Virus record (IMG/VR): IMGVR_UViG_3300042883_000878
Location: 1-49,332 of that record
Strand: one strand, 5' to 3'
DNA length: 49,332 nucleotides
From: a virus
The position numbers were made by a program, and so were the translations under genes. Below the pieces are notes generated by a model. That model did no database searches. It was not told the origin of the DNA and was given only the letters and a program-made list of their open reading frames with translations. Shown piece after piece: positions 5,015 through 19,094 of this stretch. Within the stretch, counting starts at the first letter, position 1; the number at the start of each line of letters is the position of its first letter.

Positions 5015-5444
5015 AATTAAATCCTGATTGGAACTTGTGCCATTCTATGCTGTTCTTGATTTGATAAGTTCTGTTAGAAACCGTTTTAATAATTTCTTCT
5101 AAGAACTTAAGCGTAATGTCATAATATCTTATCTTCAAATCTATTTTAGATAGTCTCTCATCGGCACTCATATACCTCTCTATGGCATCCTTTTCCCTTA
5201 CCTTATACGGAAATGGTTCTTCAACATAAACCTCTGCTGGTGCCTTTCCTGTGTAGTAGTTATAGCGTTCTAGACGTACTCTGTTGTAGGTTTCCCGCGC
5301 TTTCTCACGCAGAAGAGTAATTGTATTGTAGATTGTGTAATACTTGGAATGTAATTGGGGAATTTTTAGGGATTCATCGTGTAGGTTGTCGGGGTCAATG
5401 ACAGAATCTCTCTGCCACATCTCCTGGATTTCATCAAGATTCAT
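5013..5444 (-). CDS. uvsY: UvsY recombination mediator
   Basis: Mediator that loads the UvsX recombinase onto single-stranded DNA covered by gp32. At 143 residues it is close to T4 UvsY (137). Alignment from memory: N-terminal LDEIQEMWQRDSVID matches the T4 LEDLQEELKKDVFID region, RLERYNYYTGKAP matches the T4 LDYYSGR segment, SADERLSKIDLKIRYYDITL matches LSADKDVLKVDTSLQYW, and the SNRTYQIKNSIEWHKFQSG end matches the T4 C-terminus. It overlaps the preceding gene by ATGA and ends in a terminator. The position before uvsW is the T4 order. Confidence 0.92.
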   Translation of the reverse strand: MNLDEIQEMWQRDSVIDPDNLHDESLKIPQLHSKYYTIYNTITLLREKARETYNRVRLERYNYYTGKAPAEVYVEEPFPYKVREKDAIERYMSADERLSKIDLKIRYYDITLKFLEEIIKTVSNRTYQIKNSIEWHKFQSGFN

Positions 5445-6007
5445 GTACTTGTAAATGGATAAAGTGGTTTACCGTCCATACCTAGTATATCATAGATTGT
5501 ATACTTAAAGGACACCTCTGCCGTAAAGTAATTGATATCCATAACGGTTGAATCAAAATCTAAAGAAGTTAAAGATACTGGAAAAAGATTTTTAAATTTT
5601 ACAATTGCTGTTGAGCTATAACTACTGTTCAAAACGTAAAGTGATCCATCACTATATGCTCTATTATAATCTACCGTTCCATTTTGATCTTTGATTAAAA
5701 CTCCATATTCCTCAAGACTTCCTGAACCACCAAAAGCAGTAATCCAGTTATGGATAATCATATAATTTTCTAGATTTTCATCAACAAGAAATCTTAAATT
5801 TAAATCGCCAAAGGTCATTTTTCCACCAGGTTGTGGAATATCATTTAGATAATTTGGTTGAATTAATGTATTAAGAGTTATTTCTGGTATCTTAATAGAA
5901 TTGCAAAAGAAAGCAACCTTTGGATATTTTGCTAAAGTAAATTTGAATCCAGTTGGAGATAAAAAATTGCGATTAGAAATCTGATTAGCAAGTGCATTTG
6001 TTGCCAT
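5441..6007 (-). CDS. Tail-tube-superfamily protein (gp19/gp54-like fold; slot often annotated gp3 in cyanophages)
   Basis: A 188-residue protein that looks like the T4 gp19 family: an N-terminal FLSPTGFKFTL strand, an SIKIPEITLNT strand, then GKMTFGDLNLRFLVDENLENY and IIHNWITAFGG, the helix-containing hallmark of tube-type subunits, and a C-terminal YFTAEVSFKYTIYDIL strand. The genuine tube protein is at 12356-12946, so this paralogue is likely a tail terminator/completion protein (gp3) or a tube initiator (gp54). In cyanophages I recall gp3 being placed between gp23 and uvsY. Sequence alone cannot separate these roles. Coupled to uvsY by ATGA. Confidence 0.65.
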   Translation of the reverse strand: MATNALANQISNRNFLSPTGFKFTLAKYPKVAFFCNSIKIPEITLNTLIQPNYLNDIPQPGGKMTFGDLNLRFLVDENLENYMIIHNWITAFGGSGSLEEYGVLIKDQNGTVDYNRAYSDGSLYVLNSSYSSTAIVKFKNLFPVSLTSLDFDSTVMDINYFTAEVSFKYTIYDILGMDGKPLYPFTST

Positions 6008-6008
6008 T

Positions 6009-6554
6009 TTAGTACCTTCCGTACATTAAACCTTTACTTGGAGTTATTTTTGGTGCAGGTGGTGGGGTCGTTCTTACATAAATCTTTTGCTTTCCAAATT
6101 TTTGTGCAGATATATTTTGATCTCCAGAAACATCTCTTGCTGTTTGTAATGCAAGATCGTAACTTGTGGATTTATTATAGTTCCCTGCAGGGCCAAAATT
6201 TCCAGTGTCTGAAACTCTTGTGGTGGCAACTGGGGCTTTTGTTCCAGGAGCCCTAGTCATTTGAAGACTAGTTCCAAATGGTGTTGATGGTTTAGAACTT
6301 GTTGCTGATTTGTATGGAACAGCAACTAATCGTTGCTTATCATTAAATTTTTCTCCACTTGCAGTTAATGATCCTGGAGTATCTGCTTTACTATAAGAAC
6401 TTACGTTTACTGGTTTCCAACCATAACGTTTTTGCTCTTTATCGGTATGGGATCTTTGCGTAAATTTACCAGTAGATTTGTTTAAAGTTCCGGGTTTATA
6501 ATTTTTGTATGCAAGAACTTCTGTTTCGGTTATAAACTCCTTAAACGTCTTCAT
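6009..6554 (-). CDS. Putative capsid-targeted protein with RlpA/3D-like double-psi beta-barrel signature
   Basis: A 181-residue protein. The first ten residues, MKTFKEFITE, match the T4 capsid-targeting sequence MKTYQEFIAE of internal proteins at 7 of 10 positions and end in the gp21 protease consensus I/L-x-E. Cleavage after Glu10 is expected. Residues 62-162 follow the RlpA/3D double-psi beta-barrel pattern: LTASGEKF (63-70), LVAVP, PFGT (92-95), RVSDTGNF (113-120) with the Asp-Thr-Gly expected near the active site, YDLA (132-135) and a closing KIYVRT strand. RlpA-like domains bind or cleave peptidoglycan. If both readings hold, this is a packaged wall-active protein. It is the first gene after the gp23 terminator and has its own late promoter core. 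The Pro-rich tail is unassigned. The barrel call is the weaker of the two. Confidence 0.6.
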   Translation of the reverse strand: MKTFKEFITETEVLAYKNYKPGTLNKSTGKFTQRSHTDKEQKRYGWKPVNVSSYSKADTPGSLTASGEKFNDKQRLVAVPYKSATSSKPSTPFGTSLQMTRAPGTKAPVATTRVSDTGNFGPAGNYNKSTSYDLALQTARDVSGDQNISAQKFGKQKIYVRTTPPPAPKITPSKGLMYGRY

Positions 6555-6565
6555 CGTTTTATTTC

Positions 6566-6572
6566 TATTTAG
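6566..6572 (-). promoter_or_regulatory. T4-type late promoter core for the capsid-targeted protein operon
   Basis: The minus strand reads CTAAATA (within TATCTAAATAG). It lies directly after the gp23 terminator and about 11 bases before the ATG at 6554. Close proximity to the ATG implies a very short leader. Confidence 0.6.
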
Positions 6573-6574
6573 AT

Positions 6575-6601
6575 AAAAAAAGACCCCCCTGATGGGAGGT
6601 C
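6575..6601 (-). terminator. Rho-independent terminator after gene 23
   Basis: The minus strand reads GACCTCCC-ATCA-GGGGGGTC followed by seven T. This gives an 8-bp GC-rich stem with one T-G pair and a 4-base loop. It lies 20 bases after the gp23 stop. It is the strongest terminator in the window and fits the need to end the abundant capsid transcript. Confidence 0.9.
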
Positions 6602-6621
6602 TGGAGAAATGTGAGCAGAAC

Positions 6622-8007
6622 TCACATCAGGTTTGCAACTTTAACTCTTCTGTAGTAGTTATTTGCATTGGTGGTAAGAGCACCTGCGCCAGCGTCAAGA
6701 CCCTGAGCGAATGGGTTAGCAACCATTCCGTAACGGGTCTTAAATCCAATCTTAGGTTGGAAGGTGTTCTCTCCAACTGCACGAACCATCTGAAGAGGAA
6801 CGTATGGGCAGTAGAAAATACCTGCGTCATAAGGAGAAGAACCCTTATATCCAACAACGTAGAACTGGTTAGCTTGTACGTTTGCAGAATATGGATCGAT
6901 ATAAACGCGATACTTACCTTGGAGAACACCAGCGAAGGTGTTGCCAGTGTCATCAACGTTCAGGTTAGCGTTGAGTGCAGGGGTGTAATCGAGAACGCCA
7001 GCCATTGCAAGTGCTGAAGCAACGTCAGCAGAGCAAAGGATGGTGTTACCCTTCCCTCTACGAGTTTGCTGTGCAATTGCGTTTGCATCGCGCTCGATTT
7101 GGAAGATAAGACCCTTGAACTTCTCAACAGACCAACGACCGTTGGAGTCAACGTCGAGGTCGAAAGTACCAGCAGTAGCGGTATTTACTTGAGCACCAGG
7201 TTTAGCAACCTTATAGATTGTTCTGATGACTTCGCGGTTAATTTCAGCAAGAATCTCAGTTGAGAGAATGTTTGCTAATTCCGCTTCAGCATTCAGACCG
7301 TGGATTGCCTTGAGGTCTTGAGCGAGTTCAAGTGAGTACTCGGCTTTCAGAGCTCTTGACTTAGCGGTTACAGTGACTTTCTCGATCGAGAATGCCATCT
7401 GGTTGAACTGCTCAGATTCGCCAAGCGATTCTGCGTCGTCAGTTCTCATACCCTGACCAACGTTATAAGCTTGTTGGTTAGCGTTGGTTGAGTCTAGGAT
7501 TGATGGGTTAGATCCTGCCTGAGCAGTAGTACCCATACCAACAGCACCATTGGTCCAACCATTGGTATTGTTGAATGCACTATCTTGACCAGAGAATGCT
7601 GAATCTACTTCGTTATAGAAGGTTTCAGTGCCACTCTGAGTCTTATAACGTGAACGCATCGCGAAGATGAGTCCGGTAGGACCATTCATTGGTTGAACGC
7701 CACACAGATCATAAGCGATCAGGTTAGGCATTGAGCGTCTGATCAGTGAGATCAGAACGGGGTCGAAACCTTGGAGAGCACCAGTTCCTGAACCACTTAA
7801 ACCAGTACCTGTTCCAGTCGATGTGCTGGTAAAGTTGGTTGGTGCCTCATAAAGGAACTCACGCTCTTCGCGGATTGTTCTCTCTTGGTTTTCGAGCAGG
7901 ATTGCGGTTACAGCTCTACGATGTGAATCTTTGATAGGATCAAGACCTTCGTAGTCTAACAGTGGGGACCACTTCTCCTGCAATTGCTCCGTATTGAACA
8001 TTTGCAT
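6622..8007 (-). CDS. 23: gp23 major capsid protein precursor
   Basis: Major head subunit. It has 461 residues against 521 in T4, within the cyanophage range. Recognised regions include WSPLLDYEGLDPI near the N-terminus, PNLIAYDLCGVQPMNGPTG, SRALKAEYSLELAQDLKAIH and YRVYIDPYSAN, all close to T4 gp23. FLYE at 51-54 followed by Ala55 matches the T4 maturation site FLTE/AE, so gp21 should remove the first 54 residues. I chose the first ATG at 8007 because AGAGGT lies 8 bases upstream; a second ATG is two codons later. It is followed by a strong terminator. No intron or homing endonuclease interrupts it. Confidence 0.98.
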   Translation of the reverse strand: MQMFNTEQLQEKWSPLLDYEGLDPIKDSHRRAVTAILLENQERTIREEREFLYEAPTNFTSTSTGTGTGLSGSGTGALQGFDPVLISLIRRSMPNLIAYDLCGVQPMNGPTGLIFAMRSRYKTQSGTETFYNEVDSAFSGQDSAFNNTNGWTNGAVGMGTTAQAGSNPSILDSTNANQQAYNVGQGMRTDDAESLGESEQFNQMAFSIEKVTVTAKSRALKAEYSLELAQDLKAIHGLNAEAELANILSTEILAEINREVIRTIYKVAKPGAQVNTATAGTFDLDVDSNGRWSVEKFKGLIFQIERDANAIAQQTRRGKGNTILCSADVASALAMAGVLDYTPALNANLNVDDTGNTFAGVLQGKYRVYIDPYSANVQANQFYVVGYKGSSPYDAGIFYCPYVPLQMVRAVGENTFQPKIGFKTRYGMVANPFAQGLDAGAGALTTNANNYYRRVKVANLM

Positions 8008-8055: not shown

Positions 8056-9219
8056 TCACTTTTTAGAAACTCTTTGCAGAGTCTGAAGATATGCACTCAT
8101 AGTGCCACTAACTGATTGAATATTCATATCAGTCTCTTCAGATAGGTTTTCACTAGCGTTTCTTTGAGTACCAGCAGTTCTGGTTGGGAAATAAGACTCC
8201 CTCAGGGTTACCAGTTTCTCACGATAGTTTGCTTCACTATCAAACTCAACATTTTCGGCAAGAGAAGCGAGTTTGTCCTTCTGAGAAAGTGCAAGACCCT
8301 CAGCGACATCTGCAAAAATTACATCAGCAACCGACTCTGCCAATCTTCTATTTAGAGCAACGTTTCTTTCGATTTGCTCGTTGAGTTTTTCTTCCATTTC
8401 ATCAAGTTTATCTACCATACTCTCGATTACATCATATCTATCTTCAGGGATTGATACATAATGATCTTCAAAAAGACCTCTCATTCCTTGAAGGAACGAT
8501 TCAGTCATTTCGGTCTTAAGACCGTGCTCAACTGAGAGTGCATTTTCAGCAATCCACTCGTCAGCAACATACTCAAGATAAGCATCAACACGGTCGGTAA
8601 GACCTTCTTTGATTGCTTCAATTTCTTCTACAAGTGCAACTTCATATGATGCTTGTAGATCTTCCTTAATTTCAGCAACTTTCGATCTGATTGCTGCTTC
8701 AAAGATGGTGCGTGCTTTTTCTTGGAATTCCTCAGAAAGTTCTTCACCTTCAAGAAGAGCATTGACATCTTCTTCGATGTCGAATTCTTCTTTCATTTCA
8801 TCTTCTTCGTCCTCTTCTTCCTCTTCTTCCTCTTCGTCTTCTTTCTTTTTACCTTTCTTAGGAGTCTTAGGAGTTTCTTCTTCGTCTTCGTCAGCAGCTT
8901 CGGAAACTACTTCATCCTCATCGGTTTCTTCGAGAATTTCATCCTCGTCTTCAGTTTCCTCTTTTACACTTTGCATGGGCATAGCGGCTGCAGCTCTAGC
9001 ATTCACCACATCTTTGACCTGAGCAAGGGTTGCTCCTGGAGTCTTGATAGTTGCCGACTCATCATCGGGCCTATAGTTTTCTGGAGTAGGACCTCCGAGA
9101 TCTTCCCAACCACCAGTTTGACCAGGAGTTGCCCCAGTCAGTTTGTGCATTGGCTCGGCAGGTGCAGCCCCTTTGGTTACTACGTTTTCCATTTCTTGTA
9201 AATTGCTACCAACGGACAT
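8056..9219 (-). CDS. 22: gp22 prohead core scaffold protein
   Basis: Main scaffold of the prohead core, degraded by gp21 during maturation. It has 387 residues and lies between gp21 and gp23 as in T4. Residues 87-150 form an extreme Glu/Asp tract interrupted by a basic KTPKKGKKK segment. The rest is largely predicted helix and coiled coil (for example residues 160-300, with DKLDEMEEKLNEQIERN). Several L/I-x-E sites suit gp21 digestion. The acidic block recalls the separate acidic core proteins of T4. A TATAAATA late promoter precedes it. No good Shine-Dalgarno sequence is visible before the ATG at 9219. Confidence 0.88.
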   Translation of the reverse strand: MSVGSNLQEMENVVTKGAAPAEPMHKLTGATPGQTGGWEDLGGPTPENYRPDDESATIKTPGATLAQVKDVVNARAAAAMPMQSVKEETEDEDEILEETDEDEVVSEAADEDEEETPKTPKKGKKKEDEEEEEEEEDEEDEMKEEFDIEEDVNALLEGEELSEEFQEKARTIFEAAIRSKVAEIKEDLQASYEVALVEEIEAIKEGLTDRVDAYLEYVADEWIAENALSVEHGLKTEMTESFLQGMRGLFEDHYVSIPEDRYDVIESMVDKLDEMEEKLNEQIERNVALNRRLAESVADVIFADVAEGLALSQKDKLASLAENVEFDSEANYREKLVTLRESYFPTRTAGTQRNASENLSEETDMNIQSVSGTMSAYLQTLQRVSKK

Positions 9220-9260: not shown

Positions 9261-9911
9261 TTATAGATTTGAAAGAAATTCGTTGAAGAGATCTAGTTTG
9301 TGCTCTTCAAGTTTTCTTTGATCTACAAGGGTATTAATTCTTCTTTGAGTCTTGAATGCAAGTTGTTCACGAAGAATTCCTCCATCCCAAACCCACTCCT
9401 TACCTTCCATAATTCCCTGAACAAAAGCATCAGGGGCAGAAGGATCGGCAACAATGTCAGCAGCAGTTGCTAACATAAAATCTTCACCAACAATTTTGTG
9501 ACCTTCATTGGTCATCTTGAGTGAACCAACACCACGAGAAGAAACACCAAGGCAAACACCAGATTCTAGAAGATTTTTTGCGATCTTACCCATAGGGGTT
9601 TCAAGAAGTTGTGCTTTACCTCTAAAATTTGTTCCTTCTGCAGTTAAAGAAACAATCTTATGAGAAACACGATCAAGGTTTACGGTTGGACCATCTGGGT
9701 GTCCAAGTTCTCCAAGGGCACGACCTTTATTGACGAATGATTCAGTGTATCTCTTTACTTCACGGGAAAGAGTTTCCATTGGATACATTCTTCCGTTACG
9801 GTTGCAAATATCACCTTGAAGGAAAATACCTTCAATAAACATGGTTTGTTTACCATTTACCTTTTCGGTAATGAATTGTACTTGTGAGACTTCTTCTGTG
9901 ATGAGTTTCAT
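9261..9911 (-). CDS. 21: gp21 prohead core protease
   Basis: Serine protease of the T4 gp21 (U9/S80) type that digests the core and trims gp23 and internal proteins. It has 216 residues against 212 in T4. Catalytic-type motifs: GELGHPDGPT with His71 and GVSSRGVG with Ser124 or Ser125. The conserved NRNGRMYP segment is at about 37-44. The N-terminus contains two LITE/FITE sites (residues 3-6 and 13-16) that look like self-cleavage sites matching its own consensus. Located between the prohead core genes and the scaffold, as in T4. Confidence 0.95.
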   Translation of the reverse strand: MKLITEEVSQVQFITEKVNGKQTMFIEGIFLQGDICNRNGRMYPMETLSREVKRYTESFVNKGRALGELGHPDGPTVNLDRVSHKIVSLTAEGTNFRGKAQLLETPMGKIAKNLLESGVCLGVSSRGVGSLKMTNEGHKIVGEDFMLATAADIVADPSAPDAFVQGIMEGKEWVWDGGILREQLAFKTQRRINTLVDQRKLEEHKLDLFNEFLSNL

Positions 9912-18785: not shown

Positions 18786-19094
18786 TCATTCACTCCACGA
18801 TAATCTTTCTGGTCTATATCTTTGTGCGTTTTTGATTTTTATAGAAGTAGATTCTACTGGGTATATATTATGAACAATCGCTCCAGGATATTCTCCTTGT
18901 AGTTGCTCTGCAAGTTGATTTTTATCCATCATTTTTCCTTCAACTTCCATACGATATAATCTTCCTTTCCAAACTACATCAGCAAGAAAAGATTCGTTTG
19001 CCGTTTCTGGTTCGGAAGAATTCATATAAAGATTGCCGTTAAAATCACCGGCAATATTGATGCTTTCTGAAATAAACTGTTGAAATGATTTCAT
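18786..19094 (-). CDS. Small putative capsid-targeted (internal) protein
   Basis: A 102-residue protein. The N-terminus MKSFQQFISE matches the T4 capsid-targeting sequence MKTYQEFIAE at 6 of 10 positions, with the hydrophobic and charged pattern preserved and an I-x-E end expected to be cut by gp21 after Glu10. The remaining 92 residues include DVVWKGRLYRMEVEG and a QLAEQLQGEYPGAIVHNIYP block that suggest a small alpha/beta domain. I cannot assign a function. It is one base from the multi-domain basic protein gene upstream, and the two may act together inside the head. Confidence 0.7.
   Translation of the reverse strand: MKSFQQFISESINIAGDFNGNLYMNSSEPETANESFLADVVWKGRLYRMEVEGKMMDKNQLAEQLQGEYPGAIVHNIYPVESTSIKIKNAQRYRPERLSWSE

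Follow-up and report, generated by a model that had tools for sequence, protein, structure and literature searches.

The window, by which we mean the whole 49,332-base stretch analysed here, is the virus record of a T4-like cyanophage. Between two of its structural genes lies a gene, termed CTS-DPBB below, that combines a capsid-targeting leader (CTS) with a predicted double-psi beta-barrel (DPBB). It occupies positions 6009–6554 of the minus strand (ATG at 6554, stop codon at 6011–6009) and encodes a protein of 181 amino acids. The gene for the major capsid protein gp23 (6622–8007, minus strand) lies immediately upstream, and that for a homologue of gp3, the tail completion or sheath-stabilising protein (5441–6007, minus strand), lies downstream. 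The cognate gp21 prohead protease homologue (9261–9911, minus strand), assigned by synteny with the prohead protease of the complete relative DSL-LC03, and the gp22 core protein (8056–9219) are both encoded in the window. A terminator-like hairpin with a run of T residues, read from the sequence, follows gp23 (6575–6602, minus strand), and the motif CTAAATA (6566–6572, minus strand) lies 11 bases before the CTS-DPBB start codon. CTAAATA is depleted in the window, with four copies, all on the minus strand, against 14 expected by chance. Two of the copies lie shortly before the CTS-DPBB gene and gp20; in relatives the motif also precedes gp3, whether the CTS-DPBB gene is present or absent. We regard it as a candidate late-promoter box.

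Searches with this gene define two related families of about 100 loci each, the W family, to which the window gene belongs, and the R family, which carries a clear Pfam DPBB_1 domain. Loci of both families are mostly found in the slot between gp23 and gp3 and include many environmental relatives. The window protein comprises four parts: the CTS MKTFKEFITE (residues 1–10; 6525–6554, minus strand), a W-specific block delineated by alignments and containing strands in the structural model (residues 12–48, VLAYKNYxPG...EQKRYGWKP; 6411–6521, minus strand), the barrel core (residues 49–162; 6069–6410, minus strand) and a basic tail, disordered according to its low pLDDT, that ends in KGLMYGRY (6012–6068, minus strand). 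Neither RlpA nor the R family has the W-specific block. In its mature form the protein is lysine-rich, with a pI of 10.1.

The codons for KGLMYGRY (6012–6041 in the window, and their counterparts in relatives) share bases with the conserved gp3 leader, its ribosome-binding region, and the tail codons are near-identical at the DNA level because the last of them run into this leader. We considered the tail as a protein module swapped between the W and R families and rejected that reading, since silent sites are conserved as well; a similar gp3 DNA leader in two loci that lack the gene (L235 and L236) counters it further.

The preliminary description of this DNA, made from the sequence alone, had likened the N-terminus to the T4 capsid-targeting peptide MKTYQEFIAE, and a direct count bears out the identity of seven residues in ten. 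For packaging in T4, the ten N-terminal residues of IPIII are enough; residues 4 and 7 serve mainly in targeting and residues 8 and 10 in processing, and an Asp at position 10 stops processing while leaving targeting unaffected (PMC9026906). The window leader has an aromatic residue at position 4 and F7, and it closes with the gp21 cleavage consensus L/I-x-E in the form I8-T9-E10, as had likewise been proposed. The predicted prohead-protease cut falls after E10 (I-T-E|T), where the gp21 homologue of the same phage would remove the CTS; gp23 of this phage has a candidate cut site of its own, LYE|A, at residues 52–55. PHROG families of internal virion or head proteins match residues 1–40 and 1–20, weakly (E 0.02–0.04).

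The T4-type character of the leader holds across the relatives. Our first locus scans had included MKTFKEFI as a search pattern, and the loci were rescanned with the barrel alone; these barrel-only scans still recovered a CTS leader in 79/80 R loci and 71/80 W loci, which shows that the leader is not an artefact of retrieval, the figures being counts of non-independent events as many IMG/VR loci are near-duplicates. Among the W loci without a CTS, one is clipped by a contig end and six have a DUF3008-like leader. Among 77 distinct leaders, 66 have F and 11 have Y at position 4, and 51 have E and 16 have D at position 10; F7 is invariant but was built into the search pattern, and it counts as evidence only through its high frequency among barrel-retrieved loci. 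About 10 of the 77 leaders lack an obvious cut site. A second I/L/V/M-x-E site occurs further downstream in 23/27 W members without the site at 8–10, compared with 3/10 that have it, a difference that is only suggestive, as longer leaders give more room for such sites. Instead of a CTS, several W members (L202, 4641–5510, and L213–L216) have a DUF3008 domain (PF11450) together with KKxLKEFMGFF, which may serve as another kind of packaging leader.

The CTS is not confined to barrel proteins and is also found on unrelated proteins at the same locus and at nearby loci. In DSL-LC03 five ORFs begin with the motif M[KR][TS][FY]..F, compared with 0.0095 expected from composition. The window itself encodes a second CTS protein of 102 amino acids (18786–19094, minus strand; MKSFQQFISES..., phrog_1742) with homologues in DSL-LC03 (118339) and in phage S-SZBM1 (S-SZBM1_191). 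Unrelated CTS proteins also lie between uvsY and uvsW in four relatives (L069, 7406–8200; L009, 7491–8270; L015, 4968–5456; L090, 7427–8110); that of L069 weakly matches DUF3990 and may be related to ADP-ribosyltransferases, in which case it would be a parallel to T4 Alt.

Published virion proteomes of cyanophages allow this motif to be set against proteins detected in particles. The proteome of S-CREM2, reported with coordinates, comprises 52 virion proteins (PMC10665884). Of the 219 CDS of this phage (OR473000), five match a relaxed CTS pattern on T4 positions 4, 7, 8 and 10, and all five are in the virion proteome (52/219 CDS; Fisher p 6.5e-4), a p-value that is optimistic in that the pattern was chosen post hoc, after the S-CREM2 virion N-termini had been seen. 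After shuffling, 0.008 matches are expected, and the strict T4 pattern retrieves a single CDS. The five (loci L309–L312) are annotated as a SAM hydrolase, an APH-like kinase, a cytidylyltransferase and two hypothetical proteins. A Cas9-annotated protein detected in the same virions has RFASFMAEA close to its start. Two further virion proteins begin in a similar manner: the NMNAT of S-SCSM1, detected by mass spectrometry (PMC9602691), with MKSFLQFLKEA, and the cytidylyltransferase of S-SZBM1 (PMC9146016) with MRFRQFIIEA. The CTS protein S-SZBM1_191 is not among the proteins of the small S-SZBM1 virion proteome. By homology and on the strength of these proteomes of other cyanophages, the CTS-DPBB protein is likely to be packaged in the head, and the CTS may serve as a predictor of injected enzymes across cyanophages generally.

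The second half of the preliminary description concerned the fold, for which it had listed the motifs TASGEKF, PFGT, RVSDTGNF and YDLA in the order seen in RlpA/3D barrels; all four are present in that order. Single-sequence searches gave no barrel, and profile and fold methods were therefore needed: the window protein alone has no Pfam match above cut-off (it does not reach the DPBB_1 gathering score, and Pfam 3D is not matched), no NCBIfam match and no PDB sequence match, the W-family profile alone has no match among PDB sequences, and PHROG returns an RlpA-type 'lipoprotein precursor' at E 0.0018. The AF2 model, built from 43 sequences (pLDDT 86.3, pTM 0.73), predicts a double-psi beta-barrel with the CTS as a short helix. 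In Foldseek searches of PDB and BFVD this model matches PA4485 (4avr; E 1.4e-6, TM 0.82 on target) and the hub protein of cyanophage A-1(L) (8kea; E 3e-6), followed by kiwellin, expansins and cerato-platanin, all of them double-psi barrel proteins; a papain inhibitor of the same fold is also found. The R model has the same top two matches, with LtgG and MltA lower. Profile–profile comparison (hhalign) of the W and R cores, with leader and tail removed, gives a probability of 91 and E 1e-6, and R-family members L014 and L015, which share both leader and locus with the window protein, score 39 bits against DPBB_1 (cut-off 28.8 bits). The predicted fold thus agrees with the RlpA/3D-class barrel proposed from the letters. 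As neither a SPOR domain (Pfam/NCBIfam) nor a signal peptide or lipobox is present, the N-terminus being the CTS, the window protein is not an RlpA orthologue.

Three residues of the barrel can be matched to the active centre of lytic transglycosylases. In MltA D308 is catalytic, D297 touches the substrate and T99 orients D308, the YuiC counterparts being D162, D151 and T91 (PMC4499186); in Pseudomonas aeruginosa RlpA the catalytic residue is D168, and E. coli RlpA, which has Ser there, is inactive (PMC9712689). In the window protein Asp133 (6156–6158, minus strand) aligns with the catalytic Asp of all three (MltA D308, YuiC D162, PaRlpA D168), Asp116 (6207–6209, minus strand) with MltA D297/YuiC D151, and Thr64 (6363–6365, minus strand) with MltA T99/YuiC T91. 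All three are invariant in 43/43 aligned members (35 of the rows belonging to W) and in a second set of 15 W and 52 R members. Two of the three aspartates of the MltA/3D signature are matched in the window protein. The two aspartates are 11 residues apart in R and in PA4485 and 17 apart in W, which carries an insert; the W/R set is variable at the Glu that follows TASG and at the His found in secreted RlpAs. From alignment and spacing, D133, D116 and T64 would be the equivalents of the MltA/RlpA centre. The glycan-cleaving centre thus looks to have been kept, the W form (DTG) being apparently nearer to MltA/3D and the R form (DRGP) to RlpA.

The gene is an optional one. Phages whose gp3 is 88–93% identical to that of the window (L231–L234) have the hairpin, the CTAAATA box and gp3 with no gene in between, and the contigs tested (fragments, the longest of 140 kb) yielded no barrel at any other position. 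In other phages the slot holds different CTS genes or genes that lack a CTS, for a halogenase, an oxygenase or a carbamoyltransferase. The slot of seven loci (L270, L273, L277, L281, L288, L292 and L306) contains another, distinct CTS gene, which has a Cys-containing motif, CPDGKYWCFTDKKCKKIPRGY, and also an N/G-rich repeat. Where present, the CTS-DPBB gene has a dN/dS between relatives of about 0.1–0.18. It is thus an optional cargo gene under purifying selection, like those of the T-even internal proteins, which are diverse and defence-related and have only the CTS in common (PMC3012670). Broken copies are found in L144, with a TAG codon in the leader, and in L013, with a frameshifted core, in line with optional cargo.

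No cellular relatives of W were found in the genome collection searched. In most of the RlpA-like proteins encoded by other cyanophages, the N-terminus is hydrophobic and signal-like and the Glu and His are retained, and one gene with such an N-terminus lies near a putative lysin. DSL-LC03 and contig G009 each hold a CTS-DPBB gene together with a separate RlpA-like gene, which in DSL-LC03 is shorter than the CTS-DPBB gene. The head-cargo form is accordingly distinct from the secreted form, given the signal-like N-termini and retained Glu and His of the latter and the occurrence of both in DSL-LC03. The preliminary description had known of no cyanophage internal protein of this kind, which is consistent with our searches of open-access papers, none of which reports such a protein; annotated relatives are listed as hypothetical.

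Several known systems share individual traits with the CTS-DPBB protein. The T4 proteins IPI, IPII, IPIII and Alt likewise have a ten-residue CTS, aromatic at positions 4 and 7 and ending in a gp21-type site (positions 8–10), a basic mature part and the status of optional, variable cargo; in contrast to them, the putative cargo described here is a double-psi barrel and is encoded between gp23 and gp3. With RlpA (DPBB_1, PA4485) W has in common the barrel, the S-Y, TASG, D and D-L motifs and the position of the catalytic Asp, whereas it lacks the signal peptide, lipobox and SPOR domain, does not conserve the Glu of TASGE, lacks the His of AH, reads DTGN in place of DRGP and has the extra N-terminal block. 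MltA and YuiC (3D) belong to the same barrel class, with a Thr and two Asp that can be matched, and W shows the D-T-G motif; however, there is no 3D sequence match, and MltA appears low in Foldseek and with the R model only. The A-1(L) hub (8KEA), also a cyanophage virion protein, carries an RlpA-like barrel that hydrolyses Anabaena host cells in vitro (PMC10966104), but there the barrel is a tail-hub domain whereas the CTS-DPBB protein is predicted head cargo. T7 gp16 is an internal head protein that delivers a transglycosylase domain to the envelope of the cell (PMC8954989); its fold is unrelated, and it is a large ejectosome subunit of a podophage.

Taken together, we favour with measured confidence a reading in which the CTS-DPBB protein is packaged in the capsid, processed by the prohead protease and delivered on infection as a glycan enzyme or binder of the RlpA/3D type. 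We infer its packaging, cleavage, ejection, place of action and catalysis as follows. The protein would be made late, the N-terminal CTS would draw it into the prohead core, and gp21 would trim it after the I/L-x-E site. The lysine-rich mature protein, with a pI of about 10, would be stored in the head with the DNA and ejected through the tail on infection. At the entry site the delivered RlpA/MltA(3D)-type barrel would most likely cleave or bind the glycan strands of peptidoglycan, its delivery being analogous to that of the T7 gp16 transglycosylase from the head. A barrel whose centre looks intact argues for glycan as the target, and the conserved residues matched to the catalytic Asp and its partners make an action on peptidoglycan plausible. 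The T4 internal proteins with an established role work in the cytoplasm, which contains no peptidoglycan sacculus, and contact with the wall would therefore need a periplasmic release. Related phages moreover carry annotated tail lysozymes, which speaks against the favoured reading and makes the barrel unlikely to be the sole wall enzyme.

The strongest alternative is that the injected protein inhibits a protein of the host: the barrel would be packaged and injected just the same and would act in the cytoplasm as an inhibitor or anti-defence protein, in the manner of T4 IPI against a restriction enzyme or of kiwellin against chorismate mutase. The diversity and defence-related roles of the T-even internal proteins, with the CTS alone in common (PMC3012670), the patchy presence of the gene, as for anti-defence cargo, the loss of the RlpA Glu and His, and the kiwellin and papain inhibitor among the Foldseek matches all fit such a role. 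Pure binding, however, would not require the Thr and both Asp that are invariant across W and R, and we hold a cytoplasmic target to be unlikely, though a serious contender. The retained active-site residues and the optional status of the gene in close relatives tell against an internal head protein for DNA condensing or head assembly with the barrel as a recycled, inactive scaffold; the lysine-rich composition (pI about 10) and the effect of T4 IPIII on head assembly (PMC9026906) agree with this role, which we nevertheless find improbable.

A lysis or wall-remodelling enzyme of the producing cell, packaged incidentally, would recall the RlpA-like genes of other cyanophages with their signal-like N-termini, one of them close to a putative lysin; W and R proteins, however, bear a CTS and lack a signal peptide, and DSL-LC03 and contig G009 each carry a separate RlpA-like gene besides CTS-DPBB, so that we give this explanation little credence. 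Least credible of all is an accidental likeness of the leader on an ordinary cytoplasmic protein: the PHROG N-terminal scores are weak, as it would predict, but it has to contend with the leaders of 79/80 and 71/80 barrel-retrieved loci, the five CTS ORFs of DSL-LC03 where about 0.01 are expected, and the S-CREM2 virion proteome.

Beyond the single protein, we tentatively suggest, as a possibility somewhat short of an even chance, that the two distantly related families W and R form a dedicated and widespread group of wall enzymes, packaged in the head and matured by the protease, that share one optional slot and are injected to act on the host wall while the DNA enters. Such a group, if real, would give myoviruses an equivalent of T7 gp16 and belong to a broader set of CTS-tagged injected enzymes in cyanophages. 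If the barrel acts on peptidoglycan, T4-like phages would deliver wall enzymes from both head and tail. A short leader motif, moreover, predicts which hypothetical genes encode packaged proteins, and it fitted five of five in one phage proteome, with a pattern set post hoc. The analysis thereby provides a concrete set of candidate injected proteins for the abundant cyanophages, about whose early takeover of the host little is known.
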